Part shown: positions 4,468 to 47,275 of the stretch, one piece after another | Numbering within the stretch: position 1 is the stretch's first letter | How the letters are laid out: every line of letters begins with the position of its first letter | Assembly (NCBI GenBank): GCA_945874145.1 | Contig: CAMCFN010000008.1 | Location: 25,605-89,604 of the forward strand | Reading direction: 5' to 3' | Origin: Akkermansia muciniphila | GTDB taxonomy: Bacteria > Verrucomicrobiota > Verrucomicrobiia > Limisphaerales > SXTU01 | DNA: 64,000 nt | Position numbers and translations under genes: made by a program | The notes under the pieces: generated by a model | Told to the model about the DNA's origin: nothing | The model's database searches: none | Seen by the model: the letters and a program-made list of their open reading frames with translations, nothing else

Positions 4468-4584
4468 GCTGCTTAGGCGGCAAGCGTCGAGGATGCGTCG
4501 CCCCAACTCAAGCCGGGATTCCCTGTAGCCGGCTCGTGGCTTCCCAAGGCGAATCCGGCGGCCTGCGCTGCGTCTGACAACGTG

Positions 4585-7500
4585 ATGCCCGACGCGGAAA
4601 ACACCTCCAAGCTCCAAGCTCCCAACCTCAAGCTCCGAAGCGTCCGCGCGCGCCTCGGCTTGGTGGTTGGAGCTTGGTGTTTCTTTGGGATATGGAGCTT
4701 GGGATATGGCGCATCCAGATCGGAGTTCGATTTCTTCGAGCGCCGCATCCGGCCGGTGCTCGTGCAGCAGTGCTACGAATGTCACAGCGCCGGAAGCAAA
4801 TCACTCAAGGGCGGCCTGCATGTGGACACCCGCGACGGCCTTCGCCGCGGCGGCAACTCGGGCGAGCCAGCGGTCGTGCCCGGCGAGCCGGACAGCAGCC
4901 GGTTGCTCGCGGCCATCCGCCACTTGAGCGCGGACTTGCAGATGCCGCCGAAGAAGCAGCTTTCGCCGCCGCAAATCGCCGACTTCGAGCAGTGGATTCG
5001 CGCCGGTGCGCCGGACCCGCGTGAGGGTAAGCCTGACACGGCCGGCAACCAGCGGTCAGCGAAGCCACACTGGGCCTTCGTTCCACCGAAGGATCAGCCG
5101 CTGCCCAAGGTGAAGGACAAGGCTTGGCCGAAGTCGCCGATTGACCACTTCATTCTCGCGAAGCTGGAGGCCAGCGGTCTGAAGCCCTCGCCGCCCGCCG
5201 ACCCGCGCACGTTGATTCGCCGCATGACTTACGATCTCACCGGCCTGCCGCCCAGCGCGGAAGAGGTCGAGGCGTTCGTCCGCGAGTGTTCCTCCATCGG
5301 CAGTCGCCAGGCGGCAATCGCAAATCTCGCCGACCGTCTCCTCGTTTCCCCGCACTACGGCGAGCGTTGGGCGCGGCACTGGCTCGATGTGGCGCGCTAC
5401 GCGGACACGAAGGGCTATGTCTATGCCCGCGAGGAGCGTTTCTACGCGCATTCCTACGCCTACCGTGACTGGGTTGTCCGCGCACTGAACAACGACCTGC
5501 CTTACGATCGCTTTCTGATGCTCCAGATTGCGGGTGATCAGCTCGTGCCGGAGTTCAAAGTCGCCGAGGGGGCGCAAGCCACCAAGGCCAGCTCTCAACT
5601 TTCAACTTTCAACCCTCAACCGGCGCGCAGCGACCTGGCCGCCCTCGGTTTCCTGACGACTGGTCGCCGCTTCATCGGCGTGACGCACGAGATCATCGAC
5701 GACCGCATCGACGTGGTGACACGCGGCACGATGGGCCTGACCGTCCAGTGCGCCCGCTGCCACGACCACAAATACGACCCCATCCCCACGGCCGACTACT
5801 ACTCGCTCTACGGCGTATTCCAGAGCACGGCGGACGAGCTTGTGCAAATCGAGTTTCCGGAAAAGTCCGACGCCCTCGCCGCGTTCGAGAAAGAGTATCA
5901 AGTTCGCCTAGACAAGCTGAACTCCACCTTGGCCGCGCGCCGCGCCGAGACCGCCGCCCGCGCCCGCGCCCGGGTGACGGACTACCTGCTCGCGCAGTTT
6001 GAGCTGCACAAATATCCCGAGGAAGGCTTCGACCAAATCCTGACCGACAAGGATCTCATCCCCGCCACTGTCCGCCGCTGGCAGGCGTATCTGGACCAGG
6101 CGAATAAACGTGGCGACCCGGTCTGGGCGTTGTGGCATCAGCACGTCACCGCGCCGCAAGGCGCGGCCAAAGTAGGTCAGGCTTCCAGCCTGATTTCTAA
6201 CATCAAATCTCCCGCTCAAGCGGCGCAGGTGGATGGAACGACAGGCGGGACGCCTGTCCTACTTTTGGAAGCCTTCGCTACGCCGCCGCAATCGCCGAGC
6301 GAAGTCGCCGAGCGCTACGGCAAGGTGCTTTCCACCATCGACCAGCAGTGGCAGGCCGCGCTTGCCGCCGCGAAGACGAACAATTTGCCGCCGCCCACGG
6401 CCCTGCCAGACCCACATGCCGAGGCGCTGCGCCAGGTCCTCTATTCTGCCAGCTCACCTGTCGTCGTCCCGGACGATGGCATAGTGAACACCGAACTGCT
6501 CTTCACCTCAAAACACACGGAGGAACTATGGAAGCTCCAAGGTGAGGTGGACCGCCACCTCATCCGCACACCAGCGTCCCCGGCGCACGCGCTCATTGTG
6601 AGTGATCGCCAGCCAACGCAGAACCCACGCGTCTTCCTGCGGGGCGACCCGAAGAACAAGGGCATCGAAGTCCCGCGCCAGTTCCTGCAAGCCGTCTCCG
6701 GTCCGCAGCGCCAGCCATTCACGCATGGCAGCGGACGCCTCGAACTCGCCCGCGCCATCGCCAGTCCGGACAACCCGCTCACCGCCCGTGTGATGGTGAA
6801 CCGGCTGTGGCTGCATCATTTCGGCGCGGGCCTCGTGAAGACGCCCAGCGATTTCGGCCTGCGTGCCGAAGCACCGAGTCATCCTGAGCTGCTCGACTGG
6901 CTGGCGCGGCGCTTCGTCGCCGAGGGGTGGAGCTTGAAGGCGATGCACCGGTTGCTGCTCACGAGCGCGGCGTATCAGCAGAGCGGCGAGTATTCAGTGT
7001 CCAGTAATCAGCATTCAGTGAGGGCACCTGATTCCGGGCGACCCACTGCAAACTGGAAACTGAATACTGAACACTGGAAGCGCGCCGCTGCGCTCGACCC
7101 CGACAATCGCCTCCTCTGGCGTGCGAACCGCCAGCGGCTCGACTTCGAGGAACTGCGCGATTCGCTGCTCATGGCGAGCGGCGAACTCGACCGCGTCCCC
7201 GGCGGCAAGCCGGTGGACATCTTCACCAGCAAGCGCCGCAGCCTCTACGGCCTCGTGGACCGCCAGTATCTCCCCGGCGTTTTCCGCGTCTTCGACTTCG
7301 CCAACCCCGACCTCCACATTCCGCAGCGACACGAGACGACTGTTTCGCAGCAGGCGCTGTTCTTCCTCAACCATCCGTTCGTCGCCGCACGGGGCAAGGC
7401 GCTTGCCTCACGCGCCGATTTCACCAGCCTCGGCTCACCGGAGGAGAAAGTCCGCCTGCTCTACCGCGCCCTCTACCAGCGCGAGCCGACGTCTGCGCAA

Positions 7501-8184
7501 ACCGCCGCCGCTGTGCGCTTCGTGGCCGAGGCGGAGGCGAACCAGCCTCAGGCGCCCAAGCCATCGCCGGAAAACCAGTGGCGCTATGGCTGGGGCGAAT
7601 ACGACGAGACCACGCGCAAGCTCAAGGGCTTCGCCGCGCTGCCGCACTTTACGGGCAAGGCCTGGCAAGGCGGTCCGAGCTGGCCCGATGCCAAGCTCGG
7701 CTGGGCGCAGCTCACCGCCGACGGCGGGCACACGGGCAATGACCTCCAGCACGCCGTCATTCGCCGCTGGATTGCACCGCGCGATTGTGGCGTGAGCATC
7801 GCGGGCCGCATCGCGCACGAGACCAGCGCGGGCGACGGCGTGCGCGCGTTCATCGTCAGCAGCTCGGCCGGCCAGCTCCGCACGGTGACTGTTCACAATT
7901 CGTCGGAGGAGCTGCGCGTGCCGACCACCGCCGTGAAAGCGGGGGACACCCTTGACTTCATTGTGGACTACCGCGCGAACCTGAACAGCGACGAGTTCAA
8001 GTGGTCGCCCATCATCACCGAGTTGAACACCGCCGCCGCTGCCGGCGCGGCCGTGCCCGTGAAGGAGTGGGATGCGAAGAAAGACTTCCGTGGCGTGGAC
8101 GTGCCCGTCATGCCGGCGCTCAAGCCCTGGGAACAGCTCGTCCAAGTGCTGCTCTCGGCGAACGAGTTTCTGTTCGTGGACTAA
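4585..8184 (+). CDS. PVC cytochrome c / DUF1549 / DUF1553 (PSD1) protein with in-frame repeat inserts
   Basis: An exported 1199-residue protein of the family expanded in Planctomycetes and Verrucomicrobia. After a hydrophobic N-terminus comes a cytochrome-like domain with haem motif CYECH (about residues 63-67), a DUF1549 domain (about 145-420), a linker, a DUF1553 domain (about 710-970, with MVNRLWLHHFG and LLTSAAYQQS) and a C-terminal extension. These proteins are thought to take part in periplasmic sugar or polysaccharide oxidation; the reaction is not established. Four stretches (residues about 7-41, 336-346, 528-561 and 802-832) are encoded by repeat DNA unrelated to the family and are read through in frame. 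GTG at 4582 is an alternative start. No partner DUF1501 gene is adjacent. Confidence 0.9.
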   Translation: MPDAENTSKLQAPNLKLRSVRARLGLVVGAWCFFGIWSLGYGASRSEFDFFERRIRPVLVQQCYECHSAGSKSLKGGLHVDTRDGLRRGGNSGEPAVVPGEPDSSRLLAAIRHLSADLQMPPKKQLSPPQIADFEQWIRAGAPDPREGKPDTAGNQRSAKPHWAFVPPKDQPLPKVKDKAWPKSPIDHFILAKLEASGLKPSPPADPRTLIRRMTYDLTGLPPSAEEVEAFVRECSSIGSRQAAIANLADRLLVSPHYGERWARHWLDVARYADTKGYVYAREERFYAHSYAYRDWVVRALNNDLPYDRFLMLQIAGDQLVPEFKVAEGAQATKASSQLSTFNPQPARSDLAALGFLTTGRRFIGVTHEIIDDRIDVVTRGTMGLTVQCARCHDHKYDPIPTADYYSLYGVFQSTADELVQIEFPEKSDALAAFEKEYQVRLDKLNSTLAARRAETAARARARVTDYLLAQFELHKYPEEGFDQILTDKDLIPATVRRWQAYLDQANKRGDPVWALWHQHVTAPQGAAKVGQASSLISNIKSPAQAAQVDGTTGGTPVLLLEAFATPPQSPSEVAERYGKVLSTIDQQWQAALAAAKTNNLPPPTALPDPHAEALRQVLYSASSPVVVPDDGIVNTELLFTSKHTEELWKLQGEVDRHLIRTPASPAHALIVSDRQPTQNPRVFLRGDPKNKGIEVPRQFLQAVSGPQRQPFTHGSGRLELARAIASPDNPLTARVMVNRLWLHHFGAGLVKTPSDFGLRAEAPSHPELLDWLARRFVAEGWSLKAMHRLLLTSAAYQQSGEYSVSSNQHSVRAPDSGRPTANWKLNTEHWKRAAALDPDNRLLWRANRQRLDFEELRDSLLMASGELDRVPGGKPVDIFTSKRRSLYGLVDRQYLPGVFRVFDFANPDLHIPQRHETTVSQQALFFLNHPFVAARGKALASRADFTSLGSPEEKVRLLYRALYQREPTSAQTAAAVRFVAEAEANQPQAPKPSPENQWRYGWGEYDETTRKLKGFAALPHFTGKAWQGGPSWPDAKLGWAQLTADGGHTGNDLQHAVIRRWIAPRDCGVSIAGRIAHETSAGDGVRAFIVSSSAGQLRTVTVHNSSEELRVPTTAVKAGDTLDFIVDYRANLNSDEFKWSPIITELNTAAAAGAAVPVKEWDAKKDFRGVDVPVMPALKPWEQLVQVLLSANEFLFVD
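4603..4709 (+). repeat. in-frame AAGCTCC-type inverted repeat in PSD1 5' end
   Basis: The left part repeats CAAGCTCC three times, and the right part carries TTGGAGCTTGG and ATGGAGCTTGGGATATGG. CCAAGCTcCCAACC (4607-4627 region) pairs with GGTTGGAGCTTGG (4664-4676) with one bulged base. The right arm encodes most of the hydrophobic core of the predicted signal peptide. Confidence 0.7.
5591..5622 (+). repeat. in-frame CAACTTT tandem motif in PSD1
   Basis: CTCTCAACTTTCAACTTT followed by CAACCCTCAACC is a 7-bp-period low-complexity tract, read in the PSD1 frame as SSQLSTFNPQP. It is unlike the surrounding GC-rich codons and falls between two conserved DUF1549 segments. Confidence 0.6.
6167..6268 (+). 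repeat. in-frame twin-hairpin element in PSD1
   Basis: A 102-bp (34-codon) element with outer arms CCAAAGTAGG and CCTACTTTTGG. Just inside them are hairpin 1, TCAGGC-ttcca-GCCTGA, and hairpin 2, ACAGGC-gggac-GCCTGT. About 57 bp lie between the two hairpins. It is translated without a stop in the PSD1 frame, in the linker between DUF1549 and DUF1553. Confidence 0.75.
6988..7079 (+). repeat. in-frame ATTCAGTG-type inverted repeat in PSD1
   Basis: The left half has TATTCAGTGTCCAGTA and CATTCAGTG; the right half has CTGAATACTGAACACTGG. TATTCAG (6991-6997) pairs with CTGAATA (7060-7066). It splits the normally continuous DUF1553 stretch between AAYQQS and DPDNRLLWR. Confidence 0.65.
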
Positions 8185-44617: not shown

Positions 44618-46099
44618 CTATGGCAACCGCACGAAGCGCTCCCACGCCGCGTTCCACTGCGCAGTATCGCACGGCTCGTAGCGCACAGTCTCGAACGAGG
44701 CTCCGACTAGTTCGCGACCCGCAGCCAGCGACGGCAGGTGGCCGAGGGCGATGGCTTGCACAAGGATGTTGCCGATGGCCGTGGCCTCCGTGGGACCAGC
44801 CAAGACTGGCAGGCCGACCGCGCTGGCCGCGAACTGGTTCAGCAACGCGTTCTTACTCCCGCCCCCGACGATGTGGAGCTGCTCGACTTGGATGCCAGCC
44901 AGTTCCTCCGCCTGGCGCAAGGTCCGGCGATATTCCAGCGAGAGACTTTCCAGCACGCAGCGGACGAACTGCCCCGGCGTCTCAGGCACGGGCTGGCCAC
45001 TCGCGCGACACGCGGTCGCAATGCGCTCCGGCATCGCGTCCGGGGCGAGGAAGCGCGGGTCGGCGGGGTTGATGAGCGAACGGAATGGCTCGGCCTCGGC
45101 AGCAAACTGGGTGAGCGTGGCGTAGTCGAAATCCTGCCCCGCACGCGCCCACTCGCGACGGCACTCCTGCACCAGCCAGAGGCCGACGATGTTCTTGAGC
45201 AGCCGCACGGTGTTGCCGAAGCCAATCTCGTTCGTGAAGTTCAGCTCGCGACAGCGGTCGGTGAGAATCGGCGCGGTGAGTTCCAGACCGAGCAGCGACC
45301 AGGTGCCGGAGCTGAGATAGGCCCACTTCGCGACGCTGGATGCCGGATGCTGGATGCCGGCGGGAACACCGGTCACCGCCGCGCCGGTGTCATGCGTGCA
45401 GGTGGCGATGACCGCCACGTCCGCGCTCAACCCCGACTCGCTCGCGACTTGCGGCTTCAATTGGCCCAGCTTGGTGCCCGGCTCGACGAGCGGCGGAAAC
45501 TTCTCCGGCGCGAGGCCGAGCGCGTCCAACAGCGGTTTGGACCACGTCCGCGTGCGCGGGTTATAGAGCTGCGTGGTGCTGGCCAGCGAGACCTCCGCGC
45601 GGGCGACGCCGCTGAGGAAGTAGTTGAAGACATCGCCGAGCGGAACGATTTGCGCCGCGCGGGCCAGCCGTTCCGGCGTTTCGGCGGCGAGATGGTAAAG
45701 GTGGTTGATGGGCATGAACTGGATGCCCGTCTCCGCGAAGACTTGCGCCCACGGCACTTTCGCGAAGACCGCCTTTACCCCACGCTCGGTGCGCGGATCG
45801 CGATAGTGAAACACCGGCCCAATCACTTCGCCGCGCGCGTCGAGGAGCACGCAGTCGAGGCCCCACGAGTCCACGCTGACGCTGGCGACGGGGACGTTGC
45901 GCTGCGCGACTTGCCGCAGGCCTTCCTGGATGCCGGACCAGAGGGCGGGCAAGTCCCAGTGCCACGAACCCGCGCTGCGGAGCGGCGGGTTGGCGAACCG
46001 GTGAATCTCCTCCAGCGTGAGCCGCCCGTCCGCCAGCGAGCCCAGCATCACGCGCCCGCTCTCCGCGCCGAGGTCGATGCCGATGTAGTGCGTGGCCAT
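44618..46099 (-). CDS. rhaB: rhamnulokinase (FGGY family)
   Basis: A 493-residue FGGY kinase. The ATPase start is IGIDLGAESGRVMLG; the substrate region is VDSWGLDCVLLD and the C-terminal HIVGGGSKNALLNQ is as in L-rhamnulokinase. It phosphorylates L-rhamnulose. A GC-rich repeat (45335-45364) lies in the stretch where relatives read directly from the CHDTASAV loop into WAYLSSGTWS; here GIQHPASSVAKWAYLSSGTW carries several extra residues. ATG 46099 is the likely start, with 46117 as an alternative. No rhaA, rhaD or regulator is adjacent. Confidence 0.9.
   Translation of the reverse strand: MATHYIGIDLGAESGRVMLGSLADGRLTLEEIHRFANPPLRSAGSWHWDLPALWSGIQEGLRQVAQRNVPVASVSVDSWGLDCVLLDARGEVIGPVFHYRDPRTERGVKAVFAKVPWAQVFAETGIQFMPINHLYHLAAETPERLARAAQIVPLGDVFNYFLSGVARAEVSLASTTQLYNPRTRTWSKPLLDALGLAPEKFPPLVEPGTKLGQLKPQVASESGLSADVAVIATCTHDTGAAVTGVPAGIQHPASSVAKWAYLSSGTWSLLGLELTAPILTDRCRELNFTNEIGFGNTVRLLKNIVGLWLVQECRREWARAGQDFDYATLTQFAAEAEPFRSLINPADPRFLAPDAMPERIATACRASGQPVPETPGQFVRCVLESLSLEYRRTLRQAEELAGIQVEQLHIVGGGSKNALLNQFAASAVGLPVLAGPTEATAIGNILVQAIALGHLPSLAAGRELVGASFETVRYEPCDTAQWNAAWERFVRLP
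45335..45364. repeat. in-frame GGATGCC/GGATGCTG repeat in rhaB
   Basis: GCTGGATGCCGGATGCTGGA and the bases after it repeat GGATGCYGG three times in 30 bp. On the coding strand it reads GGCATCCAGC-like units and encodes the extra residues of rhaB. Confidence 0.55.
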
Positions 46100-46240
46100 G
46101 CGAGCAGGAACATTCACCGAGCGGGCGGAGGACGGGCAACAGAGAATTGGCGGAAAGGCGGCCGGCGCACGATTGGCACGCGCTGCAACTGCCGGCTGGC
46201 CGCCTTGACTCGTTTCCAGCCGCTCCCTAGAGTCGCGAAC

Positions 46241-47275
46241 ATGATTCTACGGAATTTTCGCGCAGCCCTCTGGTTGGCGGGCCTGCTGGCGTTTCCGCAC
46301 CTGAGCCCCGCACCGCTGATCTACAAGGCGGGCGAGGGCTGGTCCTACGAGACCTACGGCAGCTCGGGCAGTTGGCAGAAGACGCGTGCCAAGGATCAGC
46401 TCGAAGTGGCGGAACAAGCCTTCGAGAAGAAGGATTACGATCTCGCCCTCAAGGCCGCCCGGCACACGGTGAAGAAGTGGCCGCTCTCCGACTACGCGCC
46501 CAAGGCTCAGTTCTTCGTGGGGCGCAGCTTGGAAGAGCAGAAGAAGGACGAAGAGGCCTTCAAGGCCTACCAAACGCTGTTGGAGAAGTATCCCAAGGTG
46601 GAAAACTATCAGGAGGTGCTCAAGCGCCAGTTCGAGATCACCAACCGCTATCTCGACGGCCAGTGGTTCAAGCTCTGGGGCGTTGTTCCCTTCTTCCCCT
46701 CGATGGAAAAGACCACGAAGATGTATGAGAAGGTCATTGCCAACGGCCCATACAGCGATGTCGCTCCGCTGGCCCAGATGAACATCGGCTCGGCGCAGGA
46801 GAAGCGGAAGGAGTTCCCCGACGCGGTGAAGGCCTATGAGAAGGCTGCCGACAAGTATCACGATCAGAAGAACCTCGCCGCCGATGCGCTCTTCAAGGCG
46901 GGCCAGACCTATCTCAAGCAGGCCAGCGGGGCCGAATACGATCAAGGCATCGCGGCCAAGGCCATCGCCGCCTTCACGGACTTCATCGCCCTCTATCCGG
47001 AGGACAAACGCGTGGCGGACGCCCGTAAAAACATCGATGGCCTCAAAACCGAGCAGGCCCGGGGCGCTCTAAAGATCGCGGAGTTCTACGAGAAGAAGCG
47101 CCAGTGGAGCGGGGCCATGGTCTATTACAATGAAGTCATCATCAAGGACCCGGACGCGCCTGCCGCCGCCTTGGCGAAGCAACGGATTGAATTTCTCAAG
47201 ACGCTGACCGGCACCGTCACCCCGCCAGCGACCCCAGCCACCACCAACGCCGCGCCCGCTGCGGTCAAGCCGTGA
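46241..47275 (+). CDS. bamD: BamD/TPR outer-membrane assembly-like protein
   Basis: A 344-residue protein with a hydrophobic signal segment (about residues 8-24) but no clear lipobox. Its TPR repeats follow the BamD/YfiO pattern (AEQAFEKKDYDLALKAARHT, then SDYAPKAQFFVGRSLEEQ and later YSDVAPLAQMNIGSAQEKR). BamD is the lipoprotein partner of BamA in barrel insertion. The C-terminus has a Pro/Thr/Ala tail. It overlaps the LptE-like lipoprotein gene, an arrangement common in Verrucomicrobia, which supports an outer-membrane role. The bamD symbol is a best match. Confidence 0.78.
   Translation: MILRNFRAALWLAGLLAFPHLSPAPLIYKAGEGWSYETYGSSGSWQKTRAKDQLEVAEQAFEKKDYDLALKAARHTVKKWPLSDYAPKAQFFVGRSLEEQKKDEEAFKAYQTLLEKYPKVENYQEVLKRQFEITNRYLDGQWFKLWGVVPFFPSMEKTTKMYEKVIANGPYSDVAPLAQMNIGSAQEKRKEFPDAVKAYEKAADKYHDQKNLAADALFKAGQTYLKQASGAEYDQGIAAKAIAAFTDFIALYPEDKRVADARKNIDGLKTEQARGALKIAEFYEKKRQWSGAMVYYNEVIIKDPDAPAAALAKQRIEFLKTLTGTVTPPATPATTNAAPAAVKP

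Follow-up and report, generated by a model that had tools for sequence, protein, structure and literature searches.

As excerpts of the report on them (PMC10969869) describe it, Rickettsia palindromic elements (RPEs) are short palindromic DNA sequences that lie in frame within unrelated genes and are kept as protein. Repetitive extragenic palindromes (REPs) located inside genes often encode 20-30 amino acids, and both uvrA genes of the verrucomicrobium Opitutus terrae bear REPs of the GTAG kind, according to the excerpted text of PMC3733652. Heptanucleotide repeats, such as TAACTGA of Beggiatoaceae and GGGAATC of Xanthomonas with its likeness in Nostoc, are presented in the excerpts of PMC4679880 and PMC4692102 as lying mainly between genes or as underrepresented within coding sequence, and PARCEL, in the excerpt of PMC2996958, denotes coding repeats with dyad symmetry, many of them in membrane-targeted proteins. 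The repeats analysed here lie in a PSD1-type gene within a stretch of 64,000 nucleotides from Akkermansia muciniphila (assembly GCA_945874145.1, contig CAMCFN010000008.1, positions 25,605 to 89,604), referred to as the window. The genus is uncultured and, judging by the names Limisphaerales and Verrucomicrobia that its close homologues bear, likely verrucomicrobial. Four repeat blocks, a decayed array and a faint trace of another were found in this gene (Table 1).

In the window gene and its relatives, tandem arrays with a period of seven bases recurred at the same sites, belonged to different families in close orthologues, left the reading frame open, were biased in orientation and, at five sites, overlapped predicted loops. 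It is probable that the in-frame repeats at these fixed sites are translated and have replaced native linkers, and that they form predicted flexible linkers and, at the N-terminus, a predicted signal peptide. Pfam placed PSCyt1 at residues 64-124 of the window protein, PSCyt2/DUF1549 at 186-417 and PSD1/DUF1553 at 718-980, and the frame contained neither a stop nor a frameshift through all four blocks.

Periodicity was measured as the self-match at a shift (lag) of seven in windows of 21 comparisons. Block 1 (4603-4709) matched at 15/21 at lag 7, with 12/21 at the next best lag; its inverted arms (4598-4627 and 4657-4686) matched at 73%, and its RNA fold had a z of -3.3 relative to shuffles. 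Block 4 matched at 17/21, with a 94% match between its arms (6989-7005 and 7052-7068) and a fold z of -5.3. Block 3 begins with GTAG at 6172 and ends with CTAC at 6262, and its complementary arms folded with a z of -5.5, but it was not heptameric (10/21 at lag 7 and also at lag 6). Block 2 was not palindromic (z of -1.2). Its AACTCTC kind was found again at the same site (S4) in the PSD1 genes of relatives, and the S6 position also bore a repeat of the block 4 type in other PSD1 paralogues of the own genome. A preliminary description of this stretch had proposed that palindromic elements of several families lie in frame at four places in one PSD1 gene. The four blocks were all confirmed, within an open frame of 1200 codons with DUF1549 and DUF1553 matches, but the list was incomplete, since the decayed array at S3 had been overlooked. 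The palindromic character held for blocks 1, 3 and 4, each of about 90-110 nucleotides, and not for block 2, the common unit being the heptanucleotide tandem array.

Table 1. Repeat sites and related features of the window PSD1-type gene (residues refer to the site bins on the window protein).
Feature	Nucleotides	Strand	Residues	Basis and remarks
PSD1-type gene	4582..8184	+		1200 aa; start GTG 4582 or ATG 4585; open reading frame and Pfam
S0, block 1: AAGCTCC-type heptamer palindrome at 5' end	4598..4709	+	1-18	
Predicted signal-peptide core LGLVVGAWCFFGIWSLGYGA	4654..4713	+		most of it encoded on the inverted S0 arm (GGAGCTT)
S1: faint ACCGCTG-type array trace	5023..5064	+	143-169	comparison with congeners bearing crisp arrays; here 10/21 at lag 7
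S2			168-193	
S3: decayed AATCGGC-type array	~5297..5324	+	229-255	lag 7 gives 14/21, six other lags 5-9
S4, block 2: CAACTTT/AACTCTC heptamer array	5586..5625	+	318-356	18/21 at lag 7
S5, block 3: GTAG...CTAC palindromic pair, REP-dimer-like	6172..6262	+	522-570	fold, dispersed matches
S6, block 4: AGTDTTC heptamer palindrome (ATTCAGTG-type)	6988..7079	+	795-846	arms, fold, dispersed matches

Among known systems, RPEs come nearest to such in-frame palindromes, and like them the window blocks lie in frame inside a conserved gene with three Pfam domains. An RPE is a palindrome of about 150 bp that encodes a conserved peptide; among the window blocks, the three of about 90-110 nucleotides fold as palindromes and block 2 does not. 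The blocks differ from RPEs in being mostly heptamer arrays of many families that turn over at the same sites of orthologues; moreover, the block at S5 stands where the nearest orthologue has native-like sequence, and no clean insertion relative to an empty orthologue was seen there. Block 3, with its GTAG ends, its pair of palindromes in opposite orientation and its many genomic copies, is the only block that belongs to the known GTAG REP kind, whereas blocks 1, 2 and 4 are heptamer arrays and a search of the own genome, 82% complete, gave no Y1_Tnp. The heptanucleotide repeats of other bacteria likewise consist of multicopy tandem units of seven bases, but here many of them are coding and biased in orientation, with 20 of 20 AATCGGC arrays and five of six arrays from unselected sequence overlapping open reading frames (ORFs). 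The STRR repeats of cyanobacteria are a further example of such heptanucleotide repeats. Coding repeats with dyad symmetry are also a feature of PARCEL, which however is a tandem motif of 25 residues that forms domains, in contrast to the short linkers found here, built of 7-base units with a 7-residue cycle. In the open-licence literature searched, no report was found of heptamer arrays that are dense, keep the frame and turn over between relatives at fixed sites of a protein.

The host genome, a draft assembly estimated as 82% complete, comprises 157 contigs and 4.58 Mb and contains about 60 PSD1 genes. Sequences were scanned at a threshold of 17/21, with lags 5, 6 and 8-13 as controls, lag 14 echoing lag 7. 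The own PSD1 ORFs (n=63, 183 kb) contained 26 lag-7 arrays in 20 ORFs, compared with 0-2 at the control lags, and PSD1 ORFs of relatives (n=89, 283 kb), chosen by similarity to the window protein and thereby favouring its orthologues, contained 87 in 42 ORFs, compared with 0-8. Twenty 20-kb stretches of own sequence (400 kb), picked by position alone, held six lag-7 arrays, so that the density in PSD1 genes was about nine times that of unselected sequence. In a distant set, 4 of 87 PSD1 ORFs (80 named loci) were flagged, two of them for runs of N that were dropped, and five arrays remained, all of them in two of these 87 ORFs. The two, L202 and L213 (Abditibacteriales and Planctomycetaceae), each carried an array at S6, a site that may perhaps be open to arrays across phyla.

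After two rows of N runs (L229) had been removed, 118 arrays were counted, and 116 of them mapped to seven bins, drawn after the arrays had been seen, that cover about a fifth of the window protein. At S3, arrays were present in 8 own PSD1 ORFs and 17 of relatives. The units at S6 included the AGTDTTC, TCGACCC, ATTCCGA and AAGCTGA kinds, those at S2 the AATCGGC, AAAGTTC and ATTCGCA kinds, with others at each, and a single unit could occupy several sites. Altogether 42 canonical units were distinguished, some being close variants of each other and none showing fixed ends, and as many as six families occurred in the single gene of one relative. One S6 cassette, VAADVRRL...SQSLLTSAATGERL (P0015, P0019, P0023; L347), nests different heptapeptide repeats in its middle.

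The families at a given site turned over between close relatives. An orthologue of the window gene was present in all ten same-genus genomes, some copies being partial or in two pieces, and at S6 the own gene and its ten congeners carried five cassette types: the AGTDTTC palindrome (own gene and two congeners), a TCGAG palindrome (two), an ATTCCGA array (four), an ATTCCGC-like array (one, the nearest relative) and a CTCTCAC-like palindrome (one). Five outgroup genes lacked such cassettes at S6. For a set of 32 orthologues (the window gene and P0001-P0031 of 120 listed), types were mapped on a gene tree built without the repeat columns and compared with 200 shuffles. The eight S6 types, which were assigned by eye, required 19 changes compared with a shuffled mean of 19.0, the S1 types 10 compared with 10.8 and the S3 types 7 compared with 8.7. 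In a second orthologue group (P0121-P0149), many S6 types were again present, part of them of the same families. Gene conversion from own paralogues was rejected as the source of the S6 block, because the spacers of the paralogues differ and that of the window resembles the orthologues of other species.

At S5, the window gene and its nearest orthologue had about 150 nucleotides without recognisable likeness, and the adjoining downstream sequence was identical letter for letter. The version of the nearest orthologue is of similar length and resembles the native loop of the outgroups; replacement of the native sequence therefore fits better than insertion. Linker length at S1 arrays and at S6 type B lay within the range of array-free relatives, and S6 type A was longer. 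"Insert" is thus too simple a term for these blocks. The earlier proposal that repeats enter the gene at tolerant positions and are kept in frame agrees with these results, but simple insertion does not. In the alignments the block residues differed between orthologues, and the conservation that would have refuted the proposal was not observed.

The encoded peptides appeared to be selected. As read, 112 of the 118 array consensus units were free of stops, and 43 of these would carry a stop if reversed. Of the 69 units open both ways, 63 lay in the orientation that gives the more hydrophilic peptide (mean Kyte-Doolittle value of -1.18 versus 0.29), a raw count that is inflated since orthologous arrays are not independent. 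Units were for this reason also counted per distinct unit, and 24 of the 26 open both ways were in the more hydrophilic orientation (p about 1e-5). In the AlphaFold2 model of the window protein, with a mean predicted local distance difference test (pLDDT) score of 80, values below 50 were found at residues 1-27, 29-46, 149-159, 327-345, 527-536, 541-553 and 805-816, which overlap S0, S1, S4, S5 and S6. Taken together, the orientation bias and the location of five sites on predicted disordered loops make selection on the encoded peptide the likely filter on the arrays. A Foldseek search of PSD1 against the PDB gave no match at E <= 0.001.

The N-terminal site differs from the others in what its palindrome encodes. 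The AAGCTCC arm of S0 encodes polar residues and the inverted arm encodes the hydrophobic stretch LGLVVGAWCFFGIWSLGYGA. Crisp arrays were present at S0 in five congeneric orthologues, and a similar leader core was seen in all but one (G010) of the nine congeners with sequence for the 5' end; five outgroup orthologues had other leaders. Hemes of the c type are attached outside the cytoplasm, and since PSCyt1 with its CxxCH motif follows the S0 leader, LGLVVGAWCFFGIWSLGYGA is predicted to be a signal peptide, its export signal presumably supplied by the inverted arm of the palindrome. The palindrome may represent an exaptation, in which one arm would give a polar stretch and the inverted arm the hydrophobic core that exports the protein. 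Gene calling is touched as well, the repeat-encoded leader being skipped in 14 of 31 annotated database orthologues. In one congener (L276, genome G007), the leader contains, ahead of its AAGCTCC-derived core, a long in-frame palindrome that starts with GTAG.

Part of the repeats were dispersed in the own genome. Block 4 had 18 further matches at E <= 0.003 in about 16 places, and its 20-base pattern, with up to three mismatches, gave 196 matches compared with 17 for the reversed control. Block 3 had 12 further matches at E <= 0.0035 in about 10 places. The search of the own genome with block 1 returned, besides the block itself, short weak matches only (the best of 23 nt at E 0.04), and AAGCTCC was rejected as a dispersed family of this genome for lack of a good second copy there. 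In the fetched loci, the AAGCTCC pattern was located at S0 of the own gene and its orthologues and in two own places from the block 1 search, with 0 matches of the reversed control. The several families claimed at the outset were thus present, but their dispersal was found for blocks 3 and 4 and not for block 1. Confinement of the repeats to this gene, the other outcome that would have refuted the earlier proposal, was not observed for blocks 3 and 4.

Arrays were not confined to PSD1 genes. The 21-base AATCGGC pattern, with up to three mismatches, matched the own genome 47 times, corresponding to 20 arrays after collapsing, and its reversed control 0 times. Twelve of the 20 arrays lay in PSD1 ORFs, which make up 4% of the genome, and each of the other eight overlapped an ORF for which the strand being read has a Pfam match: UvrA, MutL, peptidase U32, an ABC transporter, PAP2/PMT, a CofH-like radical SAM protein, DUF1501 and a short ORF with an N-methylation motif. 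The coding direction read AATCGGC in 19 of the 20 arrays, the exception being the CofH-like gene. All eight same-genus genomes searched, among them the own genome, contained the pattern with up to two mismatches, as did one of four further genomes; its reversed control had no match apart from 4 in G004. In the unselected stretches, five of the six arrays overlapped Pfam-matched ORFs, one of them within 20 codons of the frame start, where it may precede the start codon. Among the hosts, the peptidase U32 gene (L367) has three heptamer-periodic stretches (16-21 of 21), and MutL (L370) has two, one of them weak, with GGCGGGACGCC-type motifs nearby.

UvrA showed the same pattern, as strikingly as PSD1. 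The nine same-genus UvrA genes (own L385, and L386-L393) contained 48 in-frame arrays, 4-7 per gene, and the scan of UvrA gave 61 hits at lag 7 and 0-4 at seven other lags. After the sequence EKEPPQ(K/R)VW, the array was of the GGAACGC, AGTGTTC, AATTCAG or GTCAGCA kind depending on the species. Other families of the order were represented by 13 UvrA genes, of which 11 had no array, one had one and one (L395) had seven; three second UvrA genes inside the genus had 1-3 arrays each. Although enriched in arrays, PSD1 does not stand alone, since arrays also occur in UvrA, MutL, GcpE and further genes, and the earlier view of a single gene as the setting was not upheld, with sites turning over between congeners as well. 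On a tentative extension, the arrays could form a genus-wide system of translated linker cassettes, in which dispersed seven-base palindromic arrays are swapped in and out at fixed sites of large proteins, PSD1 and UvrA among them, at a pace exceeding the divergence of the genes. If so, microsatellite-like DNA would be a standing reservoir from which proteins draw new linkers and even a signal peptide. Coding repeats of bacteria are commonly regarded as rarities, frameshift switches or parasites that are tolerated, but in this case two gene families, one of them that of the repair protein UvrA, contain them at high density, and they keep the frame, are biased in orientation and differ between close relatives at fixed positions of the protein. 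As a natural experiment, they bear on the question of which peptides are acceptable in a loop, and they offer a directly testable route from repeat DNA to a linker or signal peptide.

Since three seven-base units amount to seven codons, all frames of an array give the same heptapeptide, and a stop-free family is thus harmless in every frame provided that the total length keeps the frame. New arrays would form or be brought in through slippage and through the copying of dispersed members of a family, whole blocks may be swapped between intact flanks, and arrays would survive where the encoded peptide is stop-free, polar and compatible with a loop. Interspecies recombination, copying of dispersed elements and renewed slippage are not mutually exclusive as routes of exchange.

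One alternative, which we regard as possible but rather unlikely, is that polymerase slippage at short native repeats lets the arrays grow in place, with inverted arms made by template switching and equal families at one site re-seeded by native codons. The CTCGACC arrays at S6 of L273 and L277 continue into native CTC GAC CC codons, as such growth would have it, and slippage has been proposed for heptamers, which are overrepresented in bacteria (PMC4692102, as excerpted). The same families nevertheless recur at many unrelated sites and genes, AATCGGC for instance at S2 and S3 and in UvrA, MutL and others, and S6 type A has spacer sequence beyond the repeat in common across species.

That shared non-repeat spacer, together with the common edges of type A, favours instead old alternative alleles that species would have exchanged through homologous recombination across the conserved flanks, an account that we hold doubtful to the same degree. 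It would fit the lack of tree signal in the S6 types and the pairs in which the cassette exceeds gene-wide identity (L274/L278, 96% compared with 80%); in other pairs, however, cassette and gene were about equal (L271/L272, 76% and 78%; L273/L277, 79% and 79%), and the S5 types followed the tree. A local flank signature of recombination was looked for at S6, and no local excess of flank similarity was found.

Somewhat less likely again, the repeats may be mobile elements of the RPE or REP type that a transposase (e.g. a REP-associated tyrosine transposase (RAYT) of the Y1 kind) inserts into genes and that are tolerated in frame, the heptamer arrays being one class of them. Blocks 3 and 4 have dispersed matches and block 3 has GTAG ends, Y1_Tnp matches were present in 8 of the 10 congeners and near full-length in 4, and GTAG REPs inside genes are on record for Opitutus terrae in the excerpted PMC3733652. 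On the other side, no Y1_Tnp was found in the own genome (82% complete), which speaks against a RAYT as the mover there, the 42 canonical units showed no fixed ends, and native-like sequence stands in the nearest orthologue where block 3 stands in the window gene. Chance low-complexity DNA or an assembly artefact is scarcely credible: the genus genomes are draft assemblies, but period 7 stands out in both the PSD1 and the UvrA genes, the reversed AATCGGC control gave 0 matches compared with 47, and the same sites were found in 10 other genus genomes and in proteins from several sources.

Several observations weigh against the view that the repeats are translated linkers that replaced native sequence and are filtered by their peptides, in addition to the inflated raw orientation count and the typing of S6 by eye. 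Six of the 118 array consensuses have a stop as read, the hydrophobic arm of S0 breaks the polar rule, and the annotated start in the 14 database orthologues lies past the leader. Four repeat-free stretches (278-285, 364-371, 389-398 and 890-907) also had low pLDDT values, and S3, which is among the two most array-rich sites, was modelled as an ordered helix. The S5 types carried tree signal among the 32 orthologues (11 changes compared with a shuffled mean of 18.2), flanks were no more alike between genes with equal S6 types than between those with unequal types, no exchange tract was seen, and no enzyme integrating or copying the arrays was identified. In the unselected stretches, lag 6 equalled lag 7 (6 and 6), one step stricter giving 0 versus 5, and in the distant set the count at lag 7 (7, N rows included) did not clearly exceed those at the other lags (2-6 on the same basis). 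Copies of AGTDTTC outside PSD1, among those fetched, often lay outside long ORFs (e.g. L376, L380 and L382). The draft state of the genus assemblies counts here as well.

Elsewhere in the window, a GGATGCC/GGATGCT array (17/21) was located at 45332-45360, within an ORF for an FGGY-type carbohydrate kinase (44621-46246, minus strand).

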